A DNA stretch of 52,828 nucleotides from Rhodospirillaceae bacterium. Lineage in GTDB: Bacteria > Pseudomonadota > Alphaproteobacteria > UBA8366. Positions 23,164 to 49,147 of the stretch are shown here, piece by piece. A model generated the notes under the pieces. It had not been told where the DNA came from. It saw only the letters and a list, made by a program, of their open reading frames with translations, and searched no databases. Where the stretch lies: the NCBI GenBank assembly GCA_002715005.1, contig PAXN01000015.1:1-52828 (forward strand). Direction: 5' to 3'. Each line of letters starts with the position of its first letter. Within the stretch, counting starts at the first letter, position 1. The position numbers and the translations under genes were made by a program.

Positions 23164-23321
23164 AACTTTATCCCCGTACCATCCTGTTAAATTATAAAAT
23201 CTGCCGAACTTCAGCGCTACTGATCTTCGCTTAATAGCGATACTCGATAACCATTTTAACTGTCTGCAATTCCGAATCCATTTTGGCCAGAAAATTCAAC
23301 TTCCAGCCCGAAAGCCGCGGG

Positions 23322-23349: not shown

Positions 23350-23354
23350 TTACT

Positions 23355-25273: not shown

Positions 25274-25314
25274 AATCAGGTTTTCGGTCTAAAAAGAGTT
25301 TCGCTACGGCAACT

Positions 25315-25899: not shown

Positions 25900-25932
25900 T
25901 CTATTGGCCTCACTATATCGAATAAGCTGGCG

Positions 25933-26707: not shown

Positions 26708-26722
26708 ATTCTCTGAACTCCC

Positions 26723-27085: not shown

Positions 27086-27097
27086 CCCATTCGCCCT

Positions 27098-27637
27098 CTA
27101 CTTCTTCTTACCTTCTTTGCGCAGGATGTATTCATCAGAATAACGAATCCCCTTACCTTTATAAGGTTCGGGTGTCCGGAAACTTCTGATCTTACTTGCA
27201 ACCTGCCCTACTTGTTGTTTACTAGCTCCGCTAACTGTAATCACTCCATCGCGATCGCCTTCAAGCACGATATTTACGCCTTCGGGAATGGGAAAATCGA
27301 TATCGTGACTATAGCCTAGCTGCAAATTTAAAACCTTACCTTTGACCTGAGCGCGGTAACCAACACCATTGATTTCAAGCTTTTTCGTAAATCCGTCAGT
27401 AACACCGCACAATGCATTGTAAACCAAGCTCCGGGTCGTACCCCAAAGGGAACGTGCGCGCTTGCTTTCGTCTACCGGCGTCACGGTAACCTTTCCATCG
27501 TCTAATGAAACTTTAACAGCGTCAGTCAATGGAACCGTTTGCTCGCCCAACTTACCTTTTGCGATCAACAAACCGCTGGCAATCGACACATCGACGCCAT
27601 CAGGCACCAAAACAGGATTTTTACCTACACGCGACAT
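27098..27637 (-). CDS. rplF: 50S ribosomal protein L6
   Basis: L6 lies near the sarcin-ricin loop and supports elongation-factor binding. The 179-aa protein has MSRVGKNPVLVPDGVDVSI at the start, GYRAQVKGKVLNLQLGYSH, and the C-terminal PEPYKGKGIRYSDEYILRK. It lies 24 bp after rpsH. Confidence 0.97.
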   Translation of the reverse strand: MSRVGKNPVLVPDGVDVSIASGLLIAKGKLGEQTVPLTDAVKVSLDDGKVTVTPVDESKRARSLWGTTRSLVYNALCGVTDGFTKKLEINGVGYRAQVKGKVLNLQLGYSHDIDFPIPEGVNIVLEGDRDGVITVSGASKQQVGQVASKIRSFRTPEPYKGKGIRYSDEYILRKEGKKK

Positions 27638-27661
27638 AATGCTTCTCCTTAAAAATGCCGC

Positions 27662-28060
27662 TTAAAACACTTGGCACAGGACTTCGCCACCAACATTCTG
27701 CTCGCGGGCTTCAGCGTCCGACAGAACACCACGAGGCGTCGAAAGAATAGAAATACCGAGACCATTATAAACCCGCCGCAAATCCTTAATACCGGAATAA
27801 ATGCGACGACCCGGCGTCGACACACGAGAAATTTCACGAATAACGGGCTCCCCATTGTGATATTTGAGCTCAATGGTTAGCTCTTGAATACCAGCGCGTA
27901 ATTCAGCCCAACTAAAACCTCGAATATAGCCCTCTCGCTCCAAAGCGCCGAGCACATTAGCCCGTAACTTGGAAGCAGGACAAATAACAGTCGACGAATT
28001 ATTATGCTGACCGTTTCGAATACGGGTCAACATATCGCCCAAAGGATCGCTCATTGTCAT
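27662..28060 (-). CDS. rpsH: 30S ribosomal protein S8
   Basis: S8 nucleates assembly of the central 16S domain and in many bacteria represses the spc operon. The 132-aa protein begins [18 protein letters not shown] and ends [33 protein letters not shown] lies 9 bases before the first ATG; the second ATG two codons later is an alternative. It is 12 bp after rpsN. Confidence 0.96.
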
Positions 28061-28072
28061 GGAGGCGTTCTC

Positions 28073-28378
28073 CTACCAGCTTGACTTTACTATCCCAGGC
28101 AAATGCCCAGATGATGCGAGGTCCCGCAACGCAATGCGGGACATTTTATATTTACGATGAAAACCACGCGGACGACCGGTAAGTTCACAGCGGTTACGAA
28201 TACGAGCCGGCGCGGAATTACGCGGCAGCCGAGAAAGTTTTAGCCGTGCCGCAAAGCGTTCCTCCGCGGGCAAACTCTGATCTTTAGCGATCGCCCGCAA
28301 CGCGTTTCGCTTATCAGCATACCGTGCGACCATACGCCGCCGGCGCTTGTTTTTTTGAATGGCGCTCATTTTAGCCAT
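28073..28378 (-). CDS. rpsN: 30S ribosomal protein S14
   Basis: S14 is a head protein of the small subunit. The 101-aa product is the long, zinc-free type: it lacks the CxxC pairs and reads [20 protein letters not shown], with [19 protein letters not shown] near the end. The ATG at 28378 lies 1 bp after the rplE stop; an upstream extension would overlap rplE. Confidence 0.96.
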
Positions 28379-28379
28379 A

Positions 28380-28961
28380 TTAAGCTTGTCCCTTGTCAGT
28401 CTTTGGTTTTGGGAATGGCAGGTTGAACCCTCGAAGAAGCTCCCTAGCTTCATGATCGGTTTTTGCCGTTGTGCAAATCACTACATTCATCCCTCTAATG
28501 GTATCGACTTGATCATAATCGATTTCCGGAAATACAATCTGTTCTTTAAGTCCCAAAGAATAGTTACCGCTGCCATCAAAACTGGTAGCCGACAATCCAC
28601 GAAAATCTCGTACACGGGGTAACGCGACCATAACAAGACGATCGAGAAACTCATACATGCGGTCACGACGCAATGTCACTTTGGCCCCAATTGGCATACC
28701 TTCGCGCAATTTGAAATTTGCAATTGATGTTTTTGCCTTGGTGACTTGGGGTTTTTGACCCGTAATAGCAGCTAAATCCCCGCATGCGGCACCAATCTTT
28801 TTCGAGTCCCCAACAGCGTCCCCAATCCCCATATTTACAACAATTTTCGTCAATTTCGGAATCTGCATGGGGTTCGTATAGCCAAACGCATCTGTCATTT
28901 CCTTAACCAACGCATCGCGATAGTGCTTCTTTAGGCGCGGTATATATTTTTCTTCAGCCAT
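28380..28961 (-). CDS. rplE: 50S ribosomal protein L5
   Basis: L5 binds 5S rRNA and contacts the P-site tRNA. The 193-aa protein contains [55 protein letters not shown], and [18 protein letters not shown]. It is slightly longer than the E. coli protein because of a short Lys/Pro tail. It lies 11 bp after rplX. Confidence 0.96.
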
Positions 28962-28972
28962 CTATTTTCGCC

Positions 28973-29290
28973 TTAGCTATCAATTACTTCACCCGAAATC
29001 TTGGCAAAACGAACTTTGCGTCCGTCTTCTAGTGTCCGGAACCCAACGCGTGTCGGCTTATTTTCCTTTGGATCCACATGTGCAAGGTTGGACAAATGAA
29101 CCGATAATTCTTTGTCGATAATGCCACCCGGATTGGACTGGCTCGGCCTAGTATGGCGTTTGGCAACGTTAACGCCCTGCACAAAAGCTCTATTATCTTT
29201 TGTGACAATTTTCATCACCTCACCGACTTTTCCCTTATCTTTGCCCGTCAGCACCATAACTTTATCGCCCTTCTTAATTTTTGCGGCCAT
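28973..29290 (-). CDS. rplX: 50S ribosomal protein L24
   Basis: L24 starts large-subunit assembly. The 105-aa KOW-domain protein has [20 protein letters not shown] and [18 protein letters not shown]. Its start overlaps the rplN stop by one base (TAATG). Confidence 0.97.
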
Positions 29291-29658
29291 TACAACACCT
29301 CCGGCGCGAGCGAAATAATTTTCATAAACTGTTTGGCACGCAATTCACGGGTAACAGGGCCGAAAATACGGGTGCCAATGGGCTCATTTTGATTATTAAT
29401 CAAAACCGCCGCATTGCGGTCAAATCGAATGGCAGTACCGTCATCCCGACGCACTTCTTTTGCGGTACGTACGATAACAGCTTTCAATACTTCACCCTTC
29501 TTTACTCGACCGCGCGGAATAGCTTCTTTCACTGACACAACGATAACATCGCCGACACCGGCGGATTTTCGTTTTGAGCCTCCCAGTACTTTGATGCACT
29601 GGACGCGCTTGGCGCCGGAATTATCGGCGACATCTAAATTTGTCTGCATCTGGATCAT
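29290..29658 (-). CDS. rplN: 50S ribosomal protein L14
   Basis: L14 forms an intersubunit bridge. The 122-aa protein shows [39 protein letters not shown] and [19 protein letters not shown]. It overlaps rplX by one base and lies 27 bp after rpsQ. Confidence 0.97.
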
Positions 29659-29685
29659 GATCCAGCGCTCCCTTTAAATCTTAAC

Positions 29686-29922
29686 TCATGTACCTTCCGA
29701 CAGGACTTCCCAACTTTTACGCTTGGAAAGCGGTCGGCATTCCTGAATACGAACAACGTCCCCGGCCTTGCATCGGTTGTCTTCGTCATGTGCCATATAC
29801 TTCTTCGAACGTCTGATAAATTTCTGATAAAGTGGATGTTTAATCTTCCGCTCGACACGCACAACGACAGACTTGTCCTTGGCGTCTTTTAATACTTGTC
29901 CCTGCAAAACGCGCTTTGACAT
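29686..29922 (-). CDS. rpsQ: 30S ribosomal protein S17
   Basis: S17 is a primary 16S-binding OB-fold protein. The 78-aa product begins [19 protein letters not shown], with [20 protein letters not shown] later. The ATG at 29922 has AAGGGG eight bases upstream and is preferred over a TTG two codons earlier. Confidence 0.95.
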
Positions 29923-29934
29923 TACCAATACCCC

Positions 29935-30129
29935 TTACGAAGCCGCAGCCCGTTGATTCAAAATAGTCTTAATACGTGCGATATCCCTACGGACCTCACG
30001 CACTCGTCCCGTGTTCTCTAGCTGGCCGCTGGCCCGCTGAAACCGGAGGTTAAACGCTTCTTTGCGCAGGTCAATTAGTTGCCCAGCTAATTCATCGTCG
30101 GTTTTCTGCCGAATATCTTCTGCTTTCAT
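29935..30129 (-). CDS. rpmC: 50S ribosomal protein L29
   Basis: L29 lies at the polypeptide exit and is part of the SRP and trigger-factor docking site. The 64-aa protein reads [20 protein letters not shown], then [18 protein letters not shown]. Two tandem ATGs are present; the second (30129) gives better spacing from GGAG. It is 11 bp after rplP. Confidence 0.95.
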
Positions 30130-30140
30130 CATCCGACTCC

Positions 30141-30554
30141 TTAGCTACCTAACCGCATTATAAAGCGCGTTTTAACCGGCAGTTTTGCCGCGGCTAGTTC
30201 AAACGCACGCTTGGCAGTCTCTCTTTCAACACCATCAAGCTCAAACATCACCCGACCCGGCTTGACACGGGCCATCCAATATTCGGGAGTCCCCTTACCT
30301 TTGCCCATGCGCACTTCGGCTGGCTTTTGACTAACCGGAACATCGGGGAATATTCTAATCCACACGCGCCCGGCACGCTTGATATGACGCGTAATGGTAC
30401 GCCGTGCGGCCTCAATTTGACGAGCCGTTACACGGCCAGGTGTCGTAGCCTTCAGGCCAAAACTGCCGAAATTCAGGGTAGTCCCCCCTTTCGCCAAGCC
30501 TTTCACCCGACCTTTGTGCTGCTTGCGGTGTTTTGTCTGCTTAGGGCTGAGCAT
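30141..30554 (-). CDS. rplP: 50S ribosomal protein L16
   Basis: L16 stabilises tRNA in the A and P sites. The 137-aa protein begins [20 protein letters not shown] and contains [20 protein letters not shown] and the region around Arg81 with its Gly-Lys-Gly run. It lies 23 bp after rpsC. Confidence 0.97.
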
Positions 30555-30577
30555 CGTCTAGTCTCCCATAACAGGCC

Positions 30578-31252
30578 TTAGCGGACCTGCTGCTCCTGTA
30601 ATAATTTGTCCTGCGCCATAGGGTCATGTGCTAAGATTTCACCTTTGAACACCCAAACCTTGACGCCGCACGCACCATATGTCGTCTGCGCCGTCGATGT
30701 TCCATAATCTACATCAGCGCGCAATGTATGCAGCGGAACGCGACCTTCCCGATACCATTCAGTTCGTGCTATTTCAGCGCCGCCTAAACGGCCAGCACAG
30801 TTAATCCTAATACCTTCAGCACCAAGACGCATCGCAGATTGCACCGCCCGCTTCATGGCCCGGCGGAATGCAACACGACGGACCAGCTGTTGCGCAATAT
30901 TGTCCGCAACCAACTTTGCGTCCAATTCGGGTTTACGAATTTCAACAATATTCAGCGTTACTTCACCGGCAGTTTTCTTGGCAATTTCTAAGCGCAACTT
31001 CTCGATATCTGCGCCTTTCTTGCCAATTACGACACCCGGACGTGCCGTATGAATAGTGATCCGGGCCTTTTTTGCCGGACGCTCAATTATCACCTTGGAC
31101 ACACCAGCTTGGTTCAGTCGCTCAACAATATAATTACGCAATTGCAAATCTTGGTGCAGCAAAACACCATAGCCACGATCCGCATACCAACGCGAATCCC
31201 ATGTGCGGTTGATGCCGAGCCGGAGCCCGATCGGGTTTACTTTCTGGCCCAT
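30578..31252 (-). CDS. rpsC: 30S ribosomal protein S3
   Basis: S3 lines the mRNA entry channel. The 224-aa protein starts [20 protein letters not shown], has the KH-domain loop [15 protein letters not shown], and ends in the C-domain with [15 protein letters not shown]. It overlaps rplV by one base. Confidence 0.97.
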
Positions 31253-31632
31253 TATTCCGCTTCCTCTCGTTCTTCGACGATGACGGTCAAGTTACTAAAA
31301 GGCTTCCGGATCCGACCAACACGCCCGCGCGCCCTCGGGCGGAACCGCTTCATTTCGAGCGATTTACCAACTGTGGCTTCTTTCACATATAACCTATCAA
31401 CATCTAGCTGGTGATTGTTTTCAGCATTCGCAATCGCCGATTCTAGAACCTTCTTTACTTCAACAGCAATCCGTCGACGTGAAAAAGTAAGTTCAGCAAG
31501 CGCTTTACTGGCTTCCTTGCCGCGAATAGTCTGTGCAACCAGATTCAGCTTTTGCGGACTTCCTCGTAGTAATTTCCCGAAAGACTTAGCCTGATTTTCG
31601 CCAAGACGGCGCTTGGCCTTTGGTTTACCCAT
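31252..31632 (-). CDS. rplV: 50S ribosomal protein L22
   Basis: L22 lines the exit tunnel with a long hairpin loop. The 126-aa protein has [37 protein letters not shown] and the tip region [19 protein letters not shown]. It is 17 bp after rpsS. Confidence 0.97.
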
Positions 31633-31649
31633 TTTCCTACGCGCTCCTA

Positions 31650-31928
31650 TCAGCCACGCTTGGCTCTTTTATCAGCCGTATGGCCGTAAAAGGTCCGAGT
31701 TGGCGAGAATTCGCCAAATTTATGGCCAATCATATTTTCAGTGACCAAAACCGGAATAAATTTGGTGCCGTTATGAACACCGAAAGTCAGCCCAACAAAT
31801 TGCGGCAAGACCGTCGACCGGCGCGACCACGTTTTAATAACGTCATTGCGACCAGAAGCTCGAACCGTTTCTGCTTTTTTCAGCAGATAGCCGTCGACAA
31901 ACGGCCCTTTCCAAACTGAACGTGACAC
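31650..31928 (-). CDS. rpsS: 30S ribosomal protein S19
   Basis: S19 is in the head of the small subunit and contacts S13 and A-site tRNA. The 92-aa protein starts with GTG and reads [20 protein letters not shown], then [20 protein letters not shown] and KLGEFSPTR-like [11 protein letters not shown]. It lies 18 bp after rplB. Confidence 0.97.
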
Positions 31929-31946
31929 TACTCTTTACTCCCTAAG

Positions 31947-32780
31947 CTAACGTCTCCGACCACGACGCCGGATGATCAACTTACTACTTGGTTTTTTCTT
32001 ATTGCGGGTCCGCTTGCCTTTGGTCGGCTTACCCCACGGTGTAACCGGATGGCGTCCACCAGAAGTTCTCCCCTCACAACCTCCATGGGGGTGATCAACC
32101 GGGTTCATTGCAACACCCCTTACTTGCGGACGCTTACCAAGCCAACGTTTTCGGCCCGCCTTACCAAGCGAAATATTAGCTTGATCGGGGTTGGAAACTG
32201 CACCCACCGTCGCCATACATTCACCGCGTACCAGCCGAAGTTCGCCCGAACTCAGCTTCACTTGCGCATATCCCTGATCACGACCCACTAACTGCACATA
32301 TGCACCGGCAGAACGGGCTATTTGCCCGCCTTTACCAGCCTTCATTTCTACATTGTGGATAATGGTACCAACTGGAATATTATTGAGCGGCAGTGCGTTC
32401 CCTGGCTTAATATCCACGTCCGTGCCAGAAACTACCTGGTCGCCCGGAGCCAGCCGTTGAGGGGCCAAAATATAGGACTGCTCACCATCTTCGAATGTAA
32501 TTAGGGCGATAAATGCCGTGCGGTTAGGGTCGTATTCTATCCGTTCCACGGTTGCCGTCATGTCTATCTTTGCACGCTTGAAATCAATAATACGGTAGCG
32601 CCGTTTATGGCCACCACCACGGCGCCGCGCAGTTATGCGTCCCTTATTGTTTCGGCCACCTTTTTTCGTCAGACCTTCGGTCAAAGTTTTAACTGGCCCA
32701 CCCTTATGAAGGGTAGAACGGTCAACTAACACGAGTTCGCGCATACCCGGCGTAATTGGGTTAAAACTTTTTAACGCCAT
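31947..32780 (-). CDS. rplB: 50S ribosomal protein L2
   Basis: L2 is needed for subunit joining and peptidyl transfer. The 277-aa protein has [34 protein letters not shown], and the conserved [20 protein letters not shown] with the functionally important His. The C-terminus is basic. It lies 4 bp after rplW. Confidence 0.97.
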
Positions 32781-32784
32781 GGTT

Positions 32785-33111
32785 CTAGACTCCCGTGGTT
32801 ACGTCGATCGAATGCCCTTCTTCAAGGCATACGATGGCTTTTTTAGTATGGTTACGTCGACCTTCACGGCCTCGGAATAGCTTAACTTTGCCTTTCTGGC
32901 GCAGCGTGTTAACGGCTTTAACTTTCACATCAAATAACGCTTCTACTGCCGACTTGATTTCAGGCTTTGTAGCATCCATCGGCACGCGAAACGTTACCTG
33001 GCCAAATTCGGCACCCAAGGTCGCTTTTTCAGTGATAACCGGCGATCGGATCAACTCATATTGACGCTGCTTCGTCACACTTTTATCGTACTTGAAATAT
33101 TTCCAACTCAT
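32785..33111 (-). CDS. rplW: 50S ribosomal protein L23
   Basis: L23 is the trigger-factor and SRP anchor at the tunnel exit. The 108-aa protein contains [35 protein letters not shown] and [20 protein letters not shown]. About ten residues precede the usual start, and its ATG overlaps rplD by 4 bp, supporting this start. Confidence 0.95.
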
Positions 33112-33728
33112 AATAAGCGAGCCCCCAATCCTTCCACTGCACCTTTGGTCAAAACCAACGTATCGCGACGAAGAATGTCGTAAACATTGGCACCTTCGGT
33201 TGGCAGCACATCCACATTAGGGATGTTTCTAGCGGCCCTAACGAAATTCTCATTAATCGGAGACCCCCCAACAATCAAAACACGTCCCCAATTCAGTTTC
33301 GCAAACTTTACAGCCAGCGACTTAGTTTTCCCTTCTTTCAGTTCGGCATCATCAAGGATAATCAACTTGCCGTCAGCCTGCTTCGCAGATAGCGCAGAAC
33401 GAAGAGCCAACTTCCGAAATTTCTTAGTCAGCTTATGACCGTGATCGCGAACGACAGGGCCAAAAACCGTCGCACCGCCTCGCATCTGAACCACTTTGAT
33501 CGAACCTTGACGAGCGCGGCCGGAGCCCTTTTGACGAAATGGCTTAGCCGTTGTCCCCCGGATCTCGCCGCGGGTTTTAACCTTATGCGTTCCGGCACGT
33601 TTTTTCGCACGCTGAAAATTCACCATACGAGTAAGAATATCTTTACGAACATCTACTCCGAACACCGCATCTGGTAACTCAATATTGCCAGCCGCCGTGT
33701 TCTCTAAGGTGATGATTTTTGCTTTCAT
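33108..33728 (-). CDS. rplD: 50S ribosomal protein L4
   Basis: L4 extends into the exit tunnel; in E. coli it autoregulates the S10 operon. The 206-aa protein has [36 protein letters not shown], and [20 protein letters not shown]. It is 6 bp after rplC. Confidence 0.96.
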
Positions 33729-33734
33729 CGTTCC

Positions 33735-34490
33735 TTAGTCCTTCTTTTCTTCTTCAGTGGCTTCTCCTATGGACGCTTGCTCCCCTTCTAGGGCCGCAGA
33801 TTCTACAGGTGCATCTCTATCTTTTAACGCAGCCGGAAAAGGTGCATCCTCAGGGAGAGCCTTCTTCACCGCATCCTTAATTGTCACCCAACCGCCTTTG
33901 GACCCAGGGACCGCTCCCTTTACCAATATCAAGCCATTGTCATCATCGGTTTCGACCACGACTAAATTCTGAGAGGTAACCTGATTGGCTCCCATATGGC
34001 CAGCCATCTTTTTACCCTTAAAAACTTTACCAGGGTCCTGACACTGACCGGTTGAACCGTGCGATCTATGCGAAATCGAGACACCATGCGTCGCTCGTAA
34101 ACCTGCAAACCCGTGACGCTTCATGGCGCCGGCAAATCCCTTACCTATGCTTTCGCCAGTAACATCTACATATTGTCCAGAGACAAAATGGCTAGGAGCA
34201 ATTTCTGCCCCGACGTCTAACAACCCATCGTCGCTAACGCGAAACTCCACTAACTTTCGCTTAAGCTCTACTTTAGATTTAGCGAAATGGCCGCGCATAG
34301 CATTAGTCGTATTTTTCGCTTTGGGCTTACCACTTCCTAATTGAACAGCGTTATAACCTTCGCTATCGGCACGACGTACCGCAACTACGCAGCATTCCTC
34401 TACCTTCAACACAGTAACCGGCACATGACTACCATCTCCTGCAAAGACTCGGGTCATACCCAGTTTTTGTGCCACTAATCCGGTTCGCAT
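33735..34490 (-). CDS. rplC: 50S ribosomal protein L3, C-terminally extended
   Basis: L3 starts large-subunit assembly near the peptidyl transferase centre. The 251-aa protein has [40 protein letters not shown], and [20 protein letters not shown] with the conserved Gln that is methylated in E. coli. The last 35 or so residues are an acidic, Ala/Glu-rich tail ([17 protein letters not shown]). It is 19 bp after rpsJ. Confidence 0.96.
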
Positions 34491-34509
34491 TACTCTGTTT
34501 CCCTACCGC

Positions 34510-34818
34510 TTAGAGCTTAATCTGAACGTCAACCCCAGACGCCAGGTCGAGCTTCATCAGCGCGTCCACAGTCTGTGGTGTCGGATCAACTATGTCGAGT
34601 AGCCGCTTATGAGTGCGGACCTCGAATTGTTCACGACTTTTCTTATCGATGTGCGGCGAACGGAGAACCGTCACCTTTTCAATACGGGTCGGCAAGGGGA
34701 TTGGGCCCCGCACTTGGGCTCCCGTGCGCTTCGCTGTATTGACGATCTCTTGGGTCGACTGATCGAGTACACGATGGTCGAACGCCTTTAACCGTATGCG
34801 TATATTTTGACTGTCCAT
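34510..34818 (-). CDS. rpsJ: 30S ribosomal protein S10
   Basis: S10 is a head protein that also serves in NusB-dependent antitermination. The 102-aa protein has [40 protein letters not shown] and [17 protein letters not shown]. It follows tuf by 31 bp, so the S10 operon appears to be read from the tRNA-tuf promoter region. Confidence 0.97.
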
Positions 34819-34849
34819 GAGATCGTCTCCAAATCAGCGCCTAAGCTGC

Positions 34850-36040
34850 CTACTCTGTAATAGCTGTTACGACGCCGGCACCAACTGTCTTGCCACCTTC
34901 ACGAATCGCAAATCGCAAGCCTTCGTCCATCGCAATCGGCGCAATCAAGTTCACACCCATCGAGATATTGTCGCCGGGCATAACCATTTCGGTACCATCG
35001 GGCAGATCAACCGTTCCCGTTACATCGGTCGTCCGGAAGTAAAACTGAGGACGATAGTTCGAGAAGAACGGCGTATGACGTCCGCCTTCATCTTTTGTCA
35101 ATATATAGCACTCGCACTGAAACTTAGTGTGCGGTTCAATGGAACCAGGCTGCGCCAGCACTTGGCCGCGCTCAACACCCTCGCGCTCAATACCGCGCAA
35201 CAATGCTCCGATATTGTCGCCAGCCTCTCCTTGATCTAACAATTTGCGGAACATCTCGACGCCAGTGCAAACCGTCTTTGACGTGTCACGAATGCCGACA
35301 ATCTCAATCTCATCACCAACATTAACAATTCCACGCTCTACACGGCCCGTCACGACGGTACCACGACCGGAAATCGAAAACACATCCTCAATAGGCATTA
35401 AGAATGGCAAATCTTTAGGACGCTCCGGCTGCGGGATGTAATCGTCAACTGCCGCCATCAACTCCAGAATTTTATTCGCACCCGTATCAGGGTCCTTACC
35501 TTCAAGCGCACCCAAAGCCGTACCCGCAACAATCGGAATATCATCGCCAGGAAAGTCATAGCTCGACAAAAGCTCACGCACTTCAAGCTCAACCAGTTCC
35601 AATAATTCTTCATCATCGACCTGATCAACCTTATTCAAAAATACAACTATCGCGGGAACACCAACCTGACGCGCCAACAAAATATGCTCACGGGTTTGCG
35701 GCATCGGGCCGTCAGCCGCATTAACAACCAATATCGCCCCATCCATTTGCGCCGCACCCGTGATCATGTTCTTCACATAATCAGCATGCCCCGGGCAATC
35801 CACATGCGCGTAATGGCGGTTTTGCGTCTCATATTCAACATGAGCTGTATTAATCGTGATACCGCGCTCTTTCTCTTCTGGCGCTTTATCAATATCAGCG
35901 TAATCCGTGAACGTAGCTCCGCCTGTATCAGCTAAAACCTTCGTAATCGCAGCAGTCAGTGTCGTCTTGCCGTGATCAACGTGACCAATCGTACCAATAT
36001 TACAATGCGGTTTGGTCCGTTCAAATTTCTCTTTCGACAT
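34850..36040 (-). CDS. tuf: Elongation factor Tu
   Basis: EF-Tu is the GTPase that delivers aminoacyl-tRNA to the ribosome. The 396-aa protein starts [20 protein letters not shown]. It has the P-loop [13 protein letters not shown], switch [15 protein letters not shown], and NKVD for guanine recognition, followed by beta-barrel domains 2 and 3. It is preceded by tRNA-Gly and tRNA-Tyr on the same strand, with 93 bp between tRNA-Gly and its ATG. fusA, rpsG and rpsL do not precede it here, so this copy is not in a str operon within this window. Confidence 0.98.
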
Positions 36041-39967: not shown

Positions 39968-40043
39968 GCCGTCGTAGCTCAGTTGGTAGAGCAGGGGTTT
40001 TGTAAACCTCAGGTCCGCGGTTCGAGTCCGTGCGACGGCACCA
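39968..40043 (+). tRNA. tRNA-Thr (TGT)
   Basis: Acceptor GCCGTCG / CGACGGC, D-arm TAGCTCAGTTGGTAGAGC, anticodon stem with loop TTTGTAA (anticodon TGT), T-arm GGTTCGAGTCC, discriminator A and an encoded CCA (40041-40043) are visible. It stands alone on the plus strand at the left border of the AT-rich gap that precedes the selenium module. Confidence 0.95.
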
Positions 40044-40345: not shown

Positions 40346-41200
40346 ATGAAAAAATTAATTGCTGCGGTAACTCTGTTGGTTGGACTATCCGTTTCTGCAC
40401 AAGCCACCGATTTCACATTTACCGCTATTCCGGATCAAGATGAAAGCGCTCTAAAGGCTCGTTTCACTAAAATCGCAGTCTATCTTGAAAAACAACTCGG
40501 CGTGAAAGTAAATTATATTCCGGTCAAATCTTATTCTGCCGCCGTTACGGCCTTCCGCAATAACCAAGTACAATTGGCATGGTTTGGTGGCCTATCTGGG
40601 GTAAGGGCACGCCTACTCGTAAAAGGATCAGAAGCTATTGCCCAGGGTTTCGAAGACCCAAACTTTGAAACTTATTTTATTGCCCACAAATCGAGCGGCC
40701 TGAAGCCAAGCAAGAAATTCCCTAAAGGTATAGCCGGTAAGACCTTTACCTTCGGCTCCAAAGGCTCTACGTCAGGCCGCCTGATGCCGGAATTTCACAT
40801 TCGTAAGGCTTTTGGAAAAACACCAGAGAAAGTTTTCAAGCGTGTCGGCTTCAGCGGAAGCCATTCGCGTACCGTCGCCCTAGTCAATGGCGGCCAATAC
40901 GAGGTCGGCGCGACGAATTTTAAGGTTTATAAAAAAGCACTCAAGGCTGGCAAGCTCGACCCGAAGAAAGTAACACTCATCTGGAAGACGCCGGGTTATC
41001 CTGATTACAACTGGACTATCCGGGGCGATGTCGAAAAACAATTTGGCAAGGGCTTCAAGATCAAGGTTCAAAAAGCACTGCTCGACATGAAGGATCCGGA
41101 CTTACTCAAATCCTTCCCTCGCAAAAGCTTCATCAAGGCCACCAACAAAGACTACCAGCCGATCCTGGACACAGCCAGGACACTTGGTCTGGTTGACTAA
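40346..41200 (+). CDS. PhnD-like periplasmic binding protein, putative selenium-oxyanion ABC transporter
   Basis: This substrate-binding protein belongs to the phosphate/phosphonate-type (PhnD-like) family. A signal peptide (MKKLIAAVTLLVGLSVSA then QA) exports it. The mature protein has FTAIPDQDESALKARF, YIPVKSYSAAVTAFRNNQVQ, LAWFGGLSGVRARLLV and GSKGSTSGRLMPEFHIRKAF, the conserved ligand-binding regions. Database members of this subfamily found beside selD are named putative selenate transporters, and here too the operon continues into selD. I chose the ATG at 40346 (GTGAG upstream, 284 aa); starts at 40322 (ATG) or 40313 (TTG) are possible. Its stop overlaps the ATPase start by one base. 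Selenate, selenite or another oxyanion cannot be distinguished. Confidence 0.8.
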   Translation: MKKLIAAVTLLVGLSVSAQATDFTFTAIPDQDESALKARFTKIAVYLEKQLGVKVNYIPVKSYSAAVTAFRNNQVQLAWFGGLSGVRARLLVKGSEAIAQGFEDPNFETYFIAHKSSGLKPSKKFPKGIAGKTFTFGSKGSTSGRLMPEFHIRKAFGKTPEKVFKRVGFSGSHSRTVALVNGGQYEVGATNFKVYKKALKAGKLDPKKVTLIWKTPGYPDYNWTIRGDVEKQFGKGFKIKVQKALLDMKDPDLLKSFPRKSFIKATNKDYQPILDTARTLGLVD

Positions 41201-41859
41201 TGGCATTATTTGACCTGAGCGAAGCGTGTGCTTCTTATAACGGAAAGCAAGTGCTCAATAGCGTCTCGCTCAGCGTCGAAGCCGGCGAGAAAATCGCCCT
41301 GGTGGGTCGGAGCGGCGCCGGCAAGTCCACGCTCCTCAAGCTTCTTTATGACCGCCACGATACCGAGTGCGCACTCGTTCCTCAAAATCTGGGTTTGGTA
41401 AGCACACTCTCTGTTTTTCATAATGTTTTTATGGGTCGGCTCCATAAAAATTCGACCTGGTACAATCTTGCCAATCTGGTCCGCCCATTCACGGCAGAGG
41501 CGGAACAAGTTCGCACTATTTTAAGCAAAATTCGGCTCGAGGAAAAGTTTTCGACACCGGTTGGTGAACTTTCGGGTGGACAACAGCAACGAACCGGTGT
41601 GGCGCGTGCACTTTACCAAGGGTGCTCAGTGTTTCTAGGCGACGAGCCAGTCTCGGCGGTCGATGAACACCAGGCACGTGGTGTGATGCAAAGCATCACC
41701 GAGAACCATGACACGGTTATTCTCGCGATGCATGATGTGCAATTAGCATTGCAATTCTGTACGCGCATCATTGGCATATCTGATGGCAAAATTGCATTTG
41801 ACCGTCCGGTCGACCGCATGAAATCGACAGACCTCAATGGCCTATATGGCACCTCATAA
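41200..41859 (+). CDS. ABC transporter ATPase, putative selenium-oxyanion transporter
   Basis: This is the cytoplasmic ATPase of the adjacent importer, 219 aa. Walker A is GRSGAGKST (36-44), the Q-loop is in VPQNLGLVSTLSV, the signature is LSGGQQQR, Walker B is VFLGDEPVSAVD with the catalytic Glu, and the switch His is in LAMHDVQLAL. It resembles PhnC-type ATPases but is shorter. The start codon overlaps the binding-protein stop by one base, and the end overlaps the permease start by 23 bp, so the three are coupled. Confidence 0.9.
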   Translation: MALFDLSEACASYNGKQVLNSVSLSVEAGEKIALVGRSGAGKSTLLKLLYDRHDTECALVPQNLGLVSTLSVFHNVFMGRLHKNSTWYNLANLVRPFTAEAEQVRTILSKIRLEEKFSTPVGELSGGQQQRTGVARALYQGCSVFLGDEPVSAVDEHQARGVMQSITENHDTVILAMHDVQLALQFCTRIIGISDGKIAFDRPVDRMKSTDLNGLYGTS

Positions 41860-43357
41860 TCCCGCACCGCTCGTACCGGAATCACCGTTAGTTCGCACAA
41901 GCCTTTGGTTTTTATTTATAGCGATCAGCTGTTTATTTTTTGCCGATATCGAAATCACGACAAACGATCCCTGGCCGGAGATGAAACGCCTTGGTGCTGG
42001 TTTGATCACTCCGGATTTCACAAAGTGGGAGCAGATATTAGAGGCACTTCTCTATACAATCTGCTTCGCTATTCTCGGTGTATCTTTAGCAAATATCTCG
42101 GGTTTTTTGCTAGCGGTTGTTTTTCATTATCGCTTTGTGCGCATCGGCTGCGCATTTATCCGCGCCGTCCATGAATTATTTTGGGCACTTATTTTCCTAC
42201 AAATATTTGGCCTAACTGCTGTGACAGGTGTCCTTGCTATTGCCATTCCTTATGCGGGGATTTGTGCCAAGGTCTACGCGGAAATATTAGAAGAAGCGGA
42301 CCCCTCGCCACTCCAGGCTGTACCCAGCGGTACATCGGTCATCTCTCTGTTTTTCTATGCCCGCCTCCCTGGAGTATGGGCGCATTTCAAAACCTACTCT
42401 TTATACAGATTGGAATGTGGACTGCGATCAAGCGCAGTACTGGGATTTATCGGCTTACCAACGATCGGTTTTTATTTAGAAACTGCCTACAAAGAAGGGC
42501 ATTACTCGGACCTATCTGCTTTATTGCTCGTGTTTTATGTCGTCATCTCGACAATTCGGAAATGGATGCGAAGTGAATTGATACCAGTTTATATAATTAC
42601 TTCTATTTTTCTGCTCCCCGAAAGTGGTCCCATGAGTTGGTCTAACGCATGGCGGTTTTTCACCGACGACATTATGCCACTTCCAATCCGAACTGCCGAC
42701 GCTGCCTCGGTGCCAGTGCTCATCGAAACCTGGTATTGGTTCCAAAATTTATTTATCTCCGAAGCACTGCCCGGAATTTTTAACACCGTAATTCTTACTA
42801 TGATTGCTTTAACTAGCACTGGTCTTCTGACCTTGCTGTTTTTCCCCTTAATCTCACCGCTGTTTTTCCGTCCCGTTGGTCGTACGATAGGTCATATCTT
42901 CCTCGTCGTAGTCCTTTCCACGCCAGAGTATGTGCTAGCCTTTATTCTTCTTCAGCTTTGGGGGCCTTCTATGTTTCCAGCGATTGTGGCTCTTTCCCTA
43001 CACAATGCCGGAATCATAGGCCATTTAATCGGCCGCTTTACTGAGCAACTGCAACTACGCCCAGACAGCGCAAGGGGAGTTAATTTATATTTGTTTGAGG
43101 CATTGCCGCGTGTCTATCGCCAGTTCCTCGCCTTCATATTCTATCGTTGGGAAGTGATCTTCCGAGAAACCGCCATCCTCGGCATACTTGGTATCCATAC
43201 GTTAGGCTTTTATGTGGATTCTGCATTTGCCGATATTCGGTTTGACCGAGCAATGGTTTTAATTCTTATTACCGCATTGTTGAATATCGGCTTAGATATG
43301 ATTTCACGACGTATCCGCACAACCTTGCGGCTCCAAACATCACTTGATGCTAGGTAG
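41837..43357 (+). CDS. Double-length ABC permease (PhnE-PhnE-like fusion)
   Basis: The 506-aa membrane protein consists of two homologous permease halves, roughly residues 20-250 and 285-500, where PhnE-type permeases usually have a single half of 250-280 residues. The first half shows VYAEILEEADPSPLQAVPSG, with SSAVLGFIGLPTIGFYLETA after it. The second shows GRFTEQLQLRPDSARGVNLY, with ETAILGILGIHTLGFYVDSA after it. The two latter segments align closely, so the gene is an internal duplication and fusion that would make a pseudo-heterodimer with one polypeptide. It overlaps the ATPase by 23 bp and precedes the SelD fusion by 3 bp. An ATG at 41846 is an alternative start. Confidence 0.85.
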   Translation: MAYMAPHNPAPLVPESPLVRTSLWFLFIAISCLFFADIEITTNDPWPEMKRLGAGLITPDFTKWEQILEALLYTICFAILGVSLANISGFLLAVVFHYRFVRIGCAFIRAVHELFWALIFLQIFGLTAVTGVLAIAIPYAGICAKVYAEILEEADPSPLQAVPSGTSVISLFFYARLPGVWAHFKTYSLYRLECGLRSSAVLGFIGLPTIGFYLETAYKEGHYSDLSALLLVFYVVISTIRKWMRSELIPVYIITSIFLLPESGPMSWSNAWRFFTDDIMPLPIRTADAASVPVLIETWYWFQNLFISEALPGIFNTVILTMIALTSTGLLTLLFFPLISPLFFRPVGRTIGHIFLVVVLSTPEYVLAFILLQLWGPSMFPAIVALSLHNAGIIGHLIGRFTEQLQLRPDSARGVNLYLFEALPRVYRQFLAFIFYRWEVIFRETAILGILGIHTLGFYVDSAFADIRFDRAMVLILITALLNIGLDMISRRIRTTLRLQTSLDAR

Positions 43358-43360
43358 ATT

Positions 43361-45625
43361 ATGGAAAATTCCGATACCCCGATTTTAAAAGATTTAGTGC
43401 TGATAGGCGGCGGACATTCGCACGTAACTGTTTTGAAGAAATTCGGGATGAAGCCACTCCCTGGCGTGCGCTTGACACTAATTTGCCGCGACATGGAGGC
43501 ACCATATTCTGGTATGCTACCCGGCTTCATCGCGGGCCATTACACCTTCGCGGAAGCCCATATTGATTTAGGCCCTCTGGCGCGATTTGCCAATGCACGC
43601 TTTTATTTGGATGAAGTGACAGGCATTGATCCGGAAAAAAAACAGGTAGTCTGTAGAAATCGCCCGCCTGTGCAGTACGACCTTCTTTCGATCAATATAG
43701 GTTCTGCCCCTAATACCAAAATTGTCAAAGGCGCGACAGAGAACGTAGTGCCAGTGAAACCCATCGATGGCTTTGTCGATCATTGGAATAAACTTATTGA
43801 ACGTGTCGTCGCTGCAAAAGGAAAAACTAAAATTGGCGTCGTTGGCGGCGGAGCAGGCGGCGTTGAAATAATCCTCGCCATTCAGTTCCGCCTCCGCCAA
43901 ATTCTTAAAAGAGCGGGCATCGAAAAGGTTGAACCGAGCTATAACCTTTTCACCAACAATGACATACTAATCGGTCACAATCGGAAAGTGCGGGATAAGT
44001 ACCGAAGCGTTTTACAGGAACGAGGCGTCAAACTGTACCTCCATCATGAAGTTCAAACCGTAGACCCTAGCCGTCTGCGCTGTGTGAACGGAGAAAGTTT
44101 CGAACTCGATGAAATATTGTGGGTCACCATGGCCAGCGCCCAAGAATGGCTCGAAAAAGGTGGCTTATCAGTTTCAGAGGGTGGCTTCGTCAAAGTAAAT
44201 GACACATTAGAATCCGTATCGCATCCGGGAATTTTTGCCGCCGGCGATATCGCAGACATGATAAACCATCCGCGTCCAAAATCAGGCGTCTTCGCCGTGC
44301 GACAAGGCCCACCGCTGGAACGCAATCTGCGAAGAGCTCTCTTAGGGAAGTCTTTAAAACGTTTTGAGCCACAGCAACAGTTCTTAAGCCTAATCTCAAC
44401 CGGAGATAAATATGCGGTGGCATCGCGTTCCAATTGGACCGCTGAAGGCAAATTAATTTGGCGGTGGAAGGATTGGATCGACCGGCGGTTTATCCGAAAG
44501 TTCAGCGATCTGCCTGATATGGGTGATGAAGAGAAGGCTGATATAGCCAAGGGCCTAGCTAATGAAGATGTAATCAAAGAAATATCCGCTATCGCCATGC
44601 GTTGCGGCGGGTGTGGGGCCAAGGTGGGCGCGACGGTCTTACAAAGCGCTCTATCGCAATTAGCTCCGATTCCCCGCAAAGATGTTTTAATTGGACTGCA
44701 TGAGCCCGATGATGCCGCAGTCGTAGAAGTGCCAGACGGCAAAGTAATGGTACATACCGTCGATGCGTTTCGCGCCTTTATCGACGATCCCTATATTTTT
44801 GGCCAAATCGCAGCAAACCACGCCTTAGGGGACATCTTCGCGATGGGAGGCGAGCCGCAGACGGCGCTGTCCATCGTCACACTGCCTTTCGGTCTAGAAA
44901 ATAAGGTTGAAGATGATTTATCGCAATTGATGGCAGGCGCCATGAAAGTACTAAACGAAACGGGTACAGCATTGGTTGGTGGCCATACTAGTGAGGGTTC
45001 CGAAATGTCGTTGGGCTTTGCCATTAATGGCCTTGTCGATAGAGCACGTATTCTCCGCAAAGGTGGCATGAAAGCGGGTGATAAAATTATTCTCACAAAA
45101 CCAATCGGCACCGGTACACTATTCGCTGCCGATATGCGTCATAAAGCTGAGGGCAACTGGATTGATGCCGCGCTAAAAGGAATGATCCAATCAAACAAAC
45201 AGGGCGCGGACATTCTTTATGCAAATGGCGCAACAGCCTGCACAGACCTGACGGGCTTTGGCCTTCTTGGCCACCTCGTCGAAATGATAAAGCCGTCCGG
45301 CGTTGATGTAGATTTGAATATAAATGCTATTCCCTTATTGGCGGGAGCGTTAGAGCTAGTAACAGAAGGTATTTTCAGCTCTCTGCAGCCCCAAAATGTT
45401 CGACTCAGACGGGCCATTCATGACGTGGACTCAGCGGCGCAAGACCCCCGTTATCCGTTGATTTTTGACCCACAAACAGCCGGTGGTCTTATAGCCAGCA
45501 TTCCTGATAAAAAAGCCGATATAACGGTTACTGAGCTAAAAAAGGCTGGTTATAAATGTACGGCAATTATCGGTAGTGTTCTCCCAAATAGTGGGCGTTT
45601 AGAGCCTATTACTATTTCGTCATAG
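43361..45625 (+). CDS. selD: NDH-2-like flavoprotein fused to selenophosphate synthetase
   Basis: This is a two-domain protein of 754 aa. Residues 1 to about 385 form a two-dinucleotide-binding-domain flavoprotein like type II NADH dehydrogenases: GGGHSH (16-21) binds FAD, IGVVGGGAGGVEI binds NAD(P)H, and VSHPGIFAAGDIADM closes the FAD site. Residues from about 395 form SelD, which makes selenophosphate from selenide and ATP: MRCGGCGAKVG with the catalytic pair Cys418 and Lys421, DDAAVVEVPDG, ANHALGDIFAMGGEPQTAL and GGHTSEGSEMSLG. The active site uses Cys, not selenocysteine. The fusion plausibly couples a redox step on a selenium species to its activation. It is the fourth gene of the transporter operon, and its stop abuts that of the convergent senB. 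Confidence 0.92.
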   Translation: MENSDTPILKDLVLIGGGHSHVTVLKKFGMKPLPGVRLTLICRDMEAPYSGMLPGFIAGHYTFAEAHIDLGPLARFANARFYLDEVTGIDPEKKQVVCRNRPPVQYDLLSINIGSAPNTKIVKGATENVVPVKPIDGFVDHWNKLIERVVAAKGKTKIGVVGGGAGGVEIILAIQFRLRQILKRAGIEKVEPSYNLFTNNDILIGHNRKVRDKYRSVLQERGVKLYLHHEVQTVDPSRLRCVNGESFELDEILWVTMASAQEWLEKGGLSVSEGGFVKVNDTLESVSHPGIFAAGDIADMINHPRPKSGVFAVRQGPPLERNLRRALLGKSLKRFEPQQQFLSLISTGDKYAVASRSNWTAEGKLIWRWKDWIDRRFIRKFSDLPDMGDEEKADIAKGLANEDVIKEISAIAMRCGGCGAKVGATVLQSALSQLAPIPRKDVLIGLHEPDDAAVVEVPDGKVMVHTVDAFRAFIDDPYIFGQIAANHALGDIFAMGGEPQTALSIVTLPFGLENKVEDDLSQLMAGAMKVLNETGTALVGGHTSEGSEMSLGFAINGLVDRARILRKGGMKAGDKIILTKPIGTGTLFAADMRHKAEGNWIDAALKGMIQSNKQGADILYANGATACTDLTGFGLLGHLVEMIKPSGVDVDLNINAIPLLAGALELVTEGIFSSLQPQNVRLRRAIHDVDSAAQDPRYPLIFDPQTAGGLIASIPDKKADITVTELKKAGYKCTAIIGSVLPNSGRLEPITISS

Positions 45626-46579
45626 TTATAAAACCGCATCCAATAATACCCTCCATTCGGCGCTTTCACGTTCCAGCGTAAATTGGGAAAGCTTAGCGGC
45701 GCATTGTTGCTCAAGCCTCTTCAAGAAACTCGAATCGACTTCGGCTCGTACTAACAGGGCGCCGAGTGCTTGGGTATCTTTCACCGGATAATAACCGTCA
45801 TAGCTTTCGCCAAGTAATCCTTTTGCCCCCTCAATATCAGATGCGATAATTGGAACACCGGCGGCAACCGCTTCCGAAATCACATTCGCGCCACCTTCCA
45901 TGATTGAACTTAATACCATCAGGTGGGTCTTGGCGAATTCGCGACGCACGCGCCAGCCAGGAACCTCCCCCATCCATTGGTATCGAGGATTTCGCACCAT
46001 TTCTTTTTCGGCTTTTTCCGCCCAATCTGCACTATGCGCCTTCCCCAAATGGATAACTCTAATTTTAGAATCCGGTGGCATGTTGCGTACTGCCATCGCT
46101 GTACGAAGCGGGTCTTTCTCCTTACGCAAATGTCCGACCACGCAAATATCAAAATGCCGAACAGACGGTTTACGCGCCATGCTCAAGGGTGATGCGGACT
46201 GATGCACTACATGCAGTTTGGAAGTAAACTCAGCCGGGATGGAACGGTGCACTTGTTCATGAAGGCAGGCCAGTCCGTCAGCAATCTCCATGCACCGGTA
46301 CGTTTTCTGAGGATGGCTTTTTTGGAAGCGGTAAATATCCGTTCCCGCCAGAAGTACAATCAACGGCCGTTTCGGATAGCGCTCCCTAAATTGCAATGCG
46401 GATTGTGCGCTACGCCAGGCATGGATAGCGACCATCATATCTGCCGGACGACCGTCCCATTCCACGTCGACCCTAACTTGATGGCCGAGTTCGCGCAGAA
46501 TACGCGCCCATCGAACAGCCGTCGTTCGATTACCGTTCTTGGCTAACTTTGCTGCAGGTGTGATAAGAATAATTTTCAT
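45626..46579 (-). CDS. senB: SenB-like selenosugar synthase (glycosyltransferase family 4 type)
   Basis: This is a GT-B fold protein of 317 aa. It has NGNRTTAVRWARILRELGHQ at the N-terminus, AIHAWRSAQSALQFRERYP, LLAGTDIYRFQ, CVVGHLRKEKDPLRTAM, and the donor-site loop SSIMEGGANVISEAVAAGVP. This pattern matches the glycosyltransferases of selenoneine loci, where SenB joins selenophosphate to UDP-GlcNAc to give a selenosugar. The assignment rests on remembered family features plus the location between selD and the SenA-like gene. It is on the opposite strand: stop codons abut selD with no gap, and only 27 bp separate its start from the divergent senA. Confidence 0.85.
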   Translation of the reverse strand: MKIILITPAAKLAKNGNRTTAVRWARILRELGHQVRVDVEWDGRPADMMVAIHAWRSAQSALQFRERYPKRPLIVLLAGTDIYRFQKSHPQKTYRCMEIADGLACLHEQVHRSIPAEFTSKLHVVHQSASPLSMARKPSVRHFDICVVGHLRKEKDPLRTAMAVRNMPPDSKIRVIHLGKAHSADWAEKAEKEMVRNPRYQWMGEVPGWRVRREFAKTHLMVLSSIMEGGANVISEAVAAGVPIIASDIEGAKGLLGESYDGYYPVKDTQALGALLVRAEVDSSFLKRLEQQCAAKLSQFTLERESAEWRVLLDAVL

Positions 46580-46606
46580 CGTTACATCTTAAAGAGACCG
46601 AGTCCC

Positions 46607-47917
46607 ATGACACAACCAGTTGCTGCATCTTATTTAGAAGAAATTATGAAGGACGCCCATACTCGGACCCTGGAACTAGTAGCTGGGCTGGATGAAGATC
46701 AATTAATGGGGCCTCGTCTACAAATCGTAAATCCGTTACGCTGGGAAATTGGACATGTAGCGTGGTTCTACGAAAAATTTATTCTGCGCGATCTCTACGA
46801 CCAAGCTCCGTACCACGCACTAGGCGATGATATTTACGATTCAATTGAAATTCCCCATGAGGTGCGTTGGGACCTGCCATTGCTCCGCATGAACGAAACA
46901 CTCGCCTATATCGAGACCGTCCTAGAACGCTGTATTTGTCGGCTCGGCGACGGGGATGCGAGCGAGGTAGACAGCTACATGTATCAGTTTTCCACATTCC
47001 ACGAAGACATGCACACGGAGGCCTATACCTATTCACGCCAAACGCTGGGCTATCCGAAACCCACCTTTACAAATGCCGCAGTCCCGGATGATGCAGAAGC
47101 TGGTGCCCACCCAGGAGACGTCACAATACCAGGAGGAACATTTTTGCTCGGCTCAACAAAAGATGAAGCCATACTCTTTGATAACGAGAAATGGATCTAT
47201 CCGGTTCCAGTCAAACCGTTCGAAATCGCTAAAGCACCGGTCACCAACGCAGAGTTCCAACACTTTGTTGACGCAAAAGGATATGAAATTCGGGAGTTTT
47301 GGGACGAAGATGGATGGGACTGGTGTAAACGAGAAGACGCCGTTCATCCGGTCTATTGGCAGCCTACTGGCGAAGGTGATTGGTCAGTAAAAAGGTTCGA
47401 CACCATTGAAGACCTAAAGCCACACCAACCGATAATCCACGTGAATTGGTATGAAGCAACTGCATTTTGCCGTTGGGCAAAACGTCGATTACCCGCAGAA
47501 ATTGAGTGGGAGGTAGCTGCACTAGGCGAGCCCAATACAGATAGGACAATGCTTAGCGAAAAAAAACGTGACACTCCTTGGCATGCCACCTCCGGGAACT
47601 GCATACACGCCAACCTAGACGGCAGCGCTCTTGGCGTTATCGATGTCGCTGCTTTTCCACAGAGCGATAGCGCTTTTGGGTGTCGCCAGATGCTGGGCAA
47701 TATATGGGAGTGGACATCGACGGCATTTAGCCCCTATCCGGGTTTCTCGCCGGATGCTTATAAAGATTATTCACAACCGGTATTCTACGAGACTAAAGTC
47801 CTACGTGGAGGCGCTTGGGCGACGCGAAGCAGGGTGGTCAACGGACGCTACCGCAACTTTTTCACCCCCGATAGACGCGATGTCCTGGCCGGGTTTCGGA
47901 CCTGTGTATTGCCATAA
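46607..47917 (+). CDS. senA: SenA-like (EgtB-family) non-haem iron C-Se bond-forming enzyme
   Basis: This 436-aa protein has the EgtB architecture. An N-terminal DinB-like domain carries the iron ligands His50 (WEIGHVAWFYEKF), His132 and His136 (FHEDMHTEAYTY). A C-terminal formylglycine-generating-enzyme-type domain contains GGTFLLGSTKDE, NAEFQHFVDAKGYE, RLPAEIEWEVAAL, NIWEWTSTAFSPYPGF and RNFFTPDRRDVLAGFRT. EgtB makes the C-S bond of ergothioneine; SenA uses the selenosugar from SenB and hercynine to form the C-Se bond of selenoneine. Context (SenB, SelD, transporter) favours SenA, but sequence alone cannot exclude an ergothioneine EgtB. No EgtD, which makes hercynine, is in the window. Confidence 0.85.
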   Translation: MTQPVAASYLEEIMKDAHTRTLELVAGLDEDQLMGPRLQIVNPLRWEIGHVAWFYEKFILRDLYDQAPYHALGDDIYDSIEIPHEVRWDLPLLRMNETLAYIETVLERCICRLGDGDASEVDSYMYQFSTFHEDMHTEAYTYSRQTLGYPKPTFTNAAVPDDAEAGAHPGDVTIPGGTFLLGSTKDEAILFDNEKWIYPVPVKPFEIAKAPVTNAEFQHFVDAKGYEIREFWDEDGWDWCKREDAVHPVYWQPTGEGDWSVKRFDTIEDLKPHQPIIHVNWYEATAFCRWAKRRLPAEIEWEVAALGEPNTDRTMLSEKKRDTPWHATSGNCIHANLDGSALGVIDVAAFPQSDSAFGCRQMLGNIWEWTSTAFSPYPGFSPDAYKDYSQPVFYETKVLRGGAWATRSRVVNGRYRNFFTPDRRDVLAGFRTCVLP

Positions 47918-47977: not shown

Positions 47978-49147
47978 TTGCTACAATTCGAGCTGACGGA
48001 AGAACAACGGCAAATGATGGATACGGTCAGCCGTGTTCGTAAAGACGTAATTGAGCCTAATGCCAAAAAATGGTTAGACGGTACCTTCCCTTATGAAAAT
48101 ATGGAAAAGCTAGGCGAGATTGGCATTCTTGGAATGTCCGTTCCGGAAGAATATGGCGGGATGGGCGCGAGCGTCCTCGACACGGTTCTTGTTCTCGAAG
48201 AAATTGCAAAAGGGTGCTACGTAACAGCCATGGCCGTACTTGGCGAGGTAGGTACCCAATGCCGAATTTTATCCCATTACGGTTCTGATGAACTTAAGGA
48301 AAAGTACCTGCCTCAGCTTTTGGAAGGTAAATGTATCCTCGCTATTTGTATGACCGAACCTGATTGCGGCACCGACCTTGGTAATATGAAAACCAACTGC
48401 ATGGTTAAGAACGATAGGGTGGTTCTCAACGGCTCTAAAACTTTAATTAGCCGCGCTGAGGAAGCAGACCTTTTCGTTATATTTACTCGCGTCAATAATA
48501 CGCCTGGAACAAAAGGTATCGGTTGTGTGCTTGTAGAAAAAGGGGCTAAAGGCATGAGCGCCGATGCCTGTTATCACACTATGGGCGGTGAATATTTAGC
48601 GGATGTGCGTTTCGAAGACGTTGAAGTACCATTAGAGCATCTAGCACTGCACGAAGGGTCGCTCAGCAAATTACTAGGAGCCTTTAATACACAACGTTGC
48701 CTTAATCCTGCGATCTGTCTGGGTATGGCGGAATCCTCTTTAGAAGAATCCATTCGGTATATGCGCGACCGGGACGCTTTTAATCATCCCATTGGTGATT
48801 TCCAAGGTATGCGTTGGAAGGGGGCAAGTATGTTGACCGAAATTGAAGCAGGTCGGAGTATTCTCTATCGCGCTGCCGCAACCGCCGATCCCTTTCCTAA
48901 CCCTACCCTTGCAGCTATGGCTAAAATCTACGTGAATGAAATGTCTATCCGCGTGTGTAGCGAAGGCGTCCAAATCCATGGCGGATACGGCTTTATCGAT
49001 GATTTTGCGGTTTCACGAAATTACCGTGGCGTGCGCTATGGTACTCTTGGCGGTGGAACAACCGAAACTCTCAGGAATTTTGTCGGACGAGAACTGGTCG
49101 AACGAATGGATTTAGAAACCGGCATTTCGGGAATGGGGCTTTTTTAA
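47978..49147 (+). CDS. Acyl-CoA dehydrogenase family protein lacking the usual catalytic Glu
   Basis: This is an FAD acyl-CoA dehydrogenase fold protein of 389 aa. Fold motifs are VPEEYGGMGASVLDTVLVLE, CMTEPDCGTDLGNMKT (flavin contact) and IHGGYGFIDDFAVSRNYRG. It starts with TTG at 47978, seven bases after GGGAG. The catalytic base is absent at both known positions: the common site reads LGGGTTE (Gly359 where IYEGTSE has Glu), and the isovaleryl-type site reads NTQRC (Gln239 where DYERM has Glu). It may use another base, or do a reduction, isomerisation or non-redox reaction. It follows the SenA-like gene by 60 bp on the same strand; a functional link is not shown. Confidence 0.8.
   Translation: MLQFELTEEQRQMMDTVSRVRKDVIEPNAKKWLDGTFPYENMEKLGEIGILGMSVPEEYGGMGASVLDTVLVLEEIAKGCYVTAMAVLGEVGTQCRILSHYGSDELKEKYLPQLLEGKCILAICMTEPDCGTDLGNMKTNCMVKNDRVVLNGSKTLISRAEEADLFVIFTRVNNTPGTKGIGCVLVEKGAKGMSADACYHTMGGEYLADVRFEDVEVPLEHLALHEGSLSKLLGAFNTQRCLNPAICLGMAESSLEESIRYMRDRDAFNHPIGDFQGMRWKGASMLTEIEAGRSILYRAAATADPFPNPTLAAMAKIYVNEMSIRVCSEGVQIHGGYGFIDDFAVSRNYRGVRYGTLGGGTTETLRNFVGRELVERMDLETGISGMGLF

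Follow-up and report, generated by a model that had tools for sequence, protein, structure and literature searches.

We analysed a window of 52,828 nucleotides from a marine bacterium (contig PAXN01000015.1 of the Rhodospirillaceae bacterium assembly GCA_002715005.1). Reading of its open reading frames places six adjacent genes where the first-pass annotation had put them. The window proteins were scored as NCBIfam bit scores against curated cut-offs, with the following result.

40346..41200, + strand: substrate-binding protein (SBP) of an ABC importer; TIGR04553, 364 bits against a cut-off of 250; PhnD, 145 against 261, not reached.
41200..41859, + strand: PhnC-like importer ABC ATPase; PhnC, 165 bits, below the cut-off of 266; Pfam ABC_tran.
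41837..43357, + strand: importer permease, 506 amino acids; TIGR01097 PhnE in two stretches, 217.3 against 216.7.
43361..45625, + strand: NAD(P)H/FAD oxidoreductase–SelD fusion (NDH-SelD); TIGR03169, 501 against 310; TIGR00476, 305.5 against 125.
45626..46579, − strand: senB, predicted selenosugar synthase; TIGR04348, 401 against 300.
46607..47917, + strand: senA, predicted selenoneine synthase (EgtB/OvoA/OvsA iron-enzyme superfamily); NF041186, 475 against 420.

The SBP, the flavoprotein, SelD, SenB and SenA all score above their family cut-offs, and the earlier description of the six genes holds. The SBP, ATPase, permease and NDH-SelD genes form one same-strand run, while senB is convergent with selD and divergent from senA, the senA and senB start codons being 27 bp apart. 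As senB is on the opposite strand, the six genes do not make up a single transcription unit. Across GTDB genome contigs, 563 SenB relatives were detected, of which the best 80 loci were read; 67 of these 80 have a senA match, and the face-to-face start codons seen in the window (around 46580–46606) recur there, usually with a gap of 18–50 bp. Such a gap is too short for two ordinary promoters, so that each promoter would fall inside the opposite gene. Scans for promoters and terminators returned sites no more frequent than in shuffled sequence, and tRNAs were the sole kind of RNA element found among those sought in the window. A tRNA-Thr gene (39968–40043) lies 303 bp before the importer start in very AT-rich DNA, a ribosomal protein/secY/rpoA operon occupies about 21285–36040, and an acyl-CoA dehydrogenase gene (47978–49147) follows on the 3′ side of senA, as it does in the close relatives L055 and L075.

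The glycosyltransferase was compared with Variovorax SenB (PDB entry 8jjn and others), the important residues of which have been defined by mutagenesis (PMC10891094). Residues N20, T23, H58, R61, T85, Q131, R155, K158, E231 and E239 are identical in the window protein; T83 is replaced by Ala, at a position that is also variable among relatives, and H235 by Asn. The latter substitution makes the motif EGGANV, which is found in seven of seven aligned relatives, in place of the EGGAHV of SenB-like enzymes (PMC10891094). Judged by its family score and its catalytic residues, the protein can be taken as a genuine member of the selenosugar synthase family, as first proposed.

For the SenA-like protein, the best solved match by phmmer is OvsA (312 bits), with Variovorax SenA scoring 210. 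This ranking put SenA membership to the test, as the enzyme might instead yield ovoselenol, like OvsA, or ergothioneine, like EgtB. The EgtB model TIGR03440 is not reached (314 against 360). The window protein has the three iron-binding His residues, an HxxMH motif and Y/N/F at the three substrate positions. In an alignment of 124 proteins, every SenA and OvsA row has Met in the HxxM/QH motif and every EgtB row has Gln, and the substrate positions read M/Q/A in OvsA rows and Y/N/(F,Y,W) in SenA and EgtB rows. The best-scoring OvsA chain is 8ux5, which has Y/N/F where 8u41 and 8u42 have M/Q/A and differs from them by exactly these letters; we infer that 8ux5 is an engineered OvsA variant. In a tree of 53 rows (IQ-TREE, LG+C20), SenA and OvsA split together from EgtB (support 100/98) and the window protein groups with SenA (99/97). 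OvsA (PDB entries 8u41 and 8ux5) shares the selenium branch of the superfamily and the HxxMH motif with the window protein, but it forms a group of its own within SenA (support 100/100), to which the window sequence does not belong. The exact position of Variovorax SenA is unsure owing to its long branch. On the diagnostic residues and the tree, ergothioneine and ovoselenol were rejected as the product; with EgtD also encoded in the genome, we regard either as highly improbable. The first-pass view of an enzyme apart from ergothioneine EgtB is borne out by the NF041186 score, the Met of the motif and the tree.

At one locus (L169, G200:C40:4876-7561) an OvsA-type gene lies directly 5′ of a SenA-type gene, which, together with the nesting of OvsA in SenA, suggests that ovoselenol synthase was derived from a selenoneine synthase. 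Where senA is not adjacent to senB (L072, L077 and others), a different partner enzyme for SenB was considered and rejected for most: an EgtB-family match was found in 10 of the 11 such genomes searched, and nine have a full-length SenA-type protein encoded elsewhere. The genome of L100 gave none, that of L093 only a fragment at a contig edge and that of L098 only a weak partial match. Plasmid pMPOP01 of Methylorubrum populi BJ001 (25 kb; L219) carries senA–senB alongside an IS6-family transposase gene, so the sen genes can travel on mobile DNA.

In the fusion protein, the NAD(P)H/FAD oxidoreductase spans approximately residues 1–400 and SelD approximately 410–754. Cys418 and Lys421 align with the active-site residues Cys17 and Lys20 of Escherichia coli SelD, and the ‘fusion_not_SelD’ model scores 494, short of its cut-off of 700. 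This is the sole SelD found in the source genome, a 94%-complete assembly in 64 contigs. Both selA (587 bits) and selB, which the first-pass annotation had marked for a search, are present; selA is followed by selB, identified by reading its GTPase sequence, and tRNA-Sec on contig C27. MnmH was not found in this genome. With selA, selB, tRNA-Sec and a sole SelD found, one selenophosphate supply would serve both selenocysteine and selenoneine. An unfused NAD(P)H/FAD domain adjoins senB at three loci (L056, L057 and L061), and a search of the whole genome carrying L057 returned no SelD.

The genome also encodes EgtD, another gene marked for a search, as an isolated gene (L052, G000:C27:130697-131599; 401 bits against a cut-off of 291). 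With this, all three refuting outcomes named in the first-pass annotation fail to appear: SenA does not cluster with EgtB, the glycosyltransferase is a SenB by family score and residues, and egtD is present. No further EgtB-family gene was found in the 94%-complete, 64-contig assembly, the missing part of which could hold a second SelD or EgtB. Given the lone egtD and the absence of a detected EgtB, the hercynine is most likely routed to selenoneine. EgtD is present in all eight senB genomes of the class survey described below, against 47 of the 182 others (p = 3e-5), and egtD lies 35–449 bp behind senA at 10 of the best 80 senB loci, as well as in G187.

Walker A, LSGGQ and Walker B motifs are readable in the translated importer ATPase, and the permease has two PhnE-like halves in a single chain. 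The proteins do not qualify as the phosphonate importer PhnCDE: the SBP and the ATPase fall below the PhnD and PhnC cut-offs, and the permease barely exceeds that of PhnE. TIGR04553, which the SBP does reach, is an NCBI family already named ‘putative selenate ABC transporter’, in which ‘selenate’ is a prediction; the window system has the same order of SBP, ATPase and double permease as other members. Its context is selenoneine synthesis, whereas other members lie with selA-selB-selC or mnmH-selD. Among solved structures, the closest to the SBP are those of PhnD1 proteins, whose ligands are phosphate, phosphite and methylphosphonate (PMC5700983, PMC10284923). Each of the phosphate-contacting PhnD1 residues (taken from PMC10284923) is conserved in at least 42 of the 43 importer SBPs, and in the window protein the oxyanion site is complete (D11, Y44, STS, H156, N174, D203 and Y204). 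The fold and this site are shared with the phosphite- and phosphate-binding proteins PhnD1 and PtxB; unlike these, the importer SBP has the invariant or near-invariant, family-specific residues K42, S43, K122, G123 and R/K158 flanking the binding residues, and the window importer has no linkage to phosphonate or phosphite genes. The predicted site, with extra positive charge, fits a small oxyanion, a description that does not by itself identify selenium as the ligand; as every PhnD1 phosphate/phosphite contact is kept, the sequence is no proof of selenium specificity.

We surveyed 190 genomes of the class, using Fisher tests that ignore ancestry. SenB is above its cut-off in eight genomes, with a clear gap (387 versus 65 bits), and TIGR04553 is also above its cut-off in eight; five genomes have both (p = 1.5e-6), and in all five the importer is inside the same cassette of ∼7 kb. 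Three of the eight senB genomes are without the importer and three of the eight importer genomes are without senB. The association still holds when only the 35 genomes that have SelD or SelA are counted (p = 0.007). SelD or SelA accompanies the importer in eight of eight genomes, which come from different families, compared with 35 of 190 overall (p = 6.5e-7), and the genomes with sub-threshold importer matches only (G028, G059 and G128) have neither.

The 80 senB loci are mostly from marine alpha- and gammaproteobacterial MAGs near the window and are not independent. Importer genes are found at 33 of these best 80 of 563, and at 22 of the 38 with enough flank; the commonest order is SBP-ATPase-permease-NDH-SelD directed toward senB. 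Other orders also occur. At five loci (L091, L107, L109, L110 and L121) the importer is tail-to-tail with senB at a distance of 16–30 bp, with no NDH-SelD; in three of these genomes SelD is encoded separately, by a gene with an in-frame TGA, and two have no SelD match. The importer is head-to-head with senB at L105 and L122, and at L083 senA is followed ∼80 bp on by SBP-ATPase-permease in one direction. That the importer is kept beside the sen genes through rearranged gene orders argues for a functional link, which the gene-order data support. The possibility that the importer is linked only as a companion of SelD is weakened by the loci that join it to senB or senA without SelD between. The proposed linkage of importer, NDH-SelD and sen genes is upheld by the overlap of five in eight in the survey and by the 33 loci.

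Seven marine alphaproteobacterial loci (L072, L077, L082, L085, L087, L093 and L100) have a gene for a hydantoinase/dihydroorotase-like amidohydrolase preceding senB and facing a gene for a xanthine-dehydrogenase-type molybdenum hydroxylase; these names were assigned by eye. Such a hydroxylase, again by eye, lies within about 3–6 kb of senB at L133, L098, L091, L107, L109 and L110.

The importer is also found with other selenium genes. In G007 the SBP, ATPase, permease, selA, selB and tRNA-Sec genes are in one run (L051); a Sphaerotilus plasmid has the order mnmH-ATPase-permease-SBP-selD, its SBP being 34% identical; and on a Paracoccus marcusii plasmid the importer adjoins selA-selB and formate dehydrogenase genes. 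Two genomes (G091 and G123) have the importer, SelA and SelD and no SenB, and four Rhodobacterales plasmids carry the importer without an adjacent selenium gene. The sen genes themselves can lie close to these systems: the sen cassette of G113 is 3 kb from tRNA-Sec-selB-selA (L034), selA is beside or near senA at L063 and L065, and an MnmH-like gene is beside or near senA at L101, L118, L124 and L125.

Taken together, the locus is probably a selenium supply-and-use cassette, the importer and SelD of which are shared by selenoproteins and selenoneine. The PhnD-fold ABC importer would bring in selenium as a small oxyanion (selenite or selenate), and the SelD half of the fusion, with its conserved active site, would convert selenide and ATP to selenophosphate. 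The NAD(P)H/FAD half probably helps to make or pass on reduced selenium, which is the weakest step of the scheme. By analogy with the characterized enzyme families, SenB would then attach selenium to a UDP-sugar and SenA would join the selenosugar to hercynine, supplied by the EgtD encoded elsewhere in the genome, giving the selenium antioxidant selenoneine. The importer and SelD would also feed selenoprotein synthesis, since selA, selB and tRNA-Sec accompany the only SelD found in this genome. The chemistry of the sen cluster enzymes has been described (PMC10891094). Like the Variovorax paradoxus cluster (senA, senB and senC/selD), the source genome has SenA and SenB equivalogs, SelD and EgtD; it differs in the fusion of SelD to an NAD(P)H/FAD domain, in the three-gene ABC importer before the fusion and in having senB on the opposite strand.

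Two other readings of the importer need to be weighed against this one. It might move phosphite, phosphate or a small phosphonate, with its selenium neighbours being incidental, a reading to which the PhnD1 relatives and their fully retained contact residues lend some weight. We consider it unlikely, as the PhnD and PhnC scores are too low, importers above the TIGR04553 cut-off are confined to selenium users (eight of eight), the linkages to selA, mnmH-selD and senAB are recurrent and differ from one another, and K42, K122, G123 and R/K158 sit beside the binding residues. A different question is whether the importer works for selenoneine synthesis alone, that is, for small-molecule selenium, as the first-pass annotation had inferred. 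In many genomes it does lie next to senA or senB, and the enrichment with senB among selenium users points the same way. Set against this are the selA-selB-tRNA-Sec genes of its own genome and the single SelD found there, which lies in the importer run; a SelD that is shared and encoded in the same run as the importer argues that the importer is not dedicated to the small molecule. The family also occurs in a selenocysteine operon (L051 of G007), beside selA-selB-formate dehydrogenase in P. marcusii, in the selenouridine operon of the Sphaerotilus plasmid and, in G091 and G123, together with SelA and SelD in the absence of SenB. Dedication is thus quite unlikely and that part of the annotation is not sustained; the best reading is that the importer supplies selenium in general and that selenoneine is one of its outlets.

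Extending this shared-supply reading to the family, we lean towards the TIGR04553 system being a selenium-specific high-affinity importer through which selenoproteins, selenouridine and selenoneine would all be supplied, while the NAD(P)H/FAD–SelD fusion would act as a reducing and activating hub. No specific selenium transporter was known in any organism according to a 2024 paper (PMC11097638), and no specific high-affinity selenium system had been identified in prokaryotes according to one from 2026 (PMC13188914). Within the searchable open literature, a scope that leaves out the 2022 sen-pathway paper, TIGR04553 is used in no paper. The suggestion that the arrangement is under-described appears to be right for the linked importer-SelD-sen layout in that literature and not for the parts, as TIGR04553, TIGR03169 and TIGR04348 are named NCBI families.

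The locus offers a candidate importer whose proposed selenium specificity can be tested: as gene order ties it to the makers of selenoneine, which is measurable, a knock-out with a clear read-out is possible. If the TIGR04553 importer is indeed selenium-specific, it would be the first transporter dedicated to selenium in prokaryotes that experiments could prove. A further suggestion from the shared arrangement is that many marine alpha- and gammaproteobacteria make selenoneine from the same imported pool of selenium that serves their selenoproteins.
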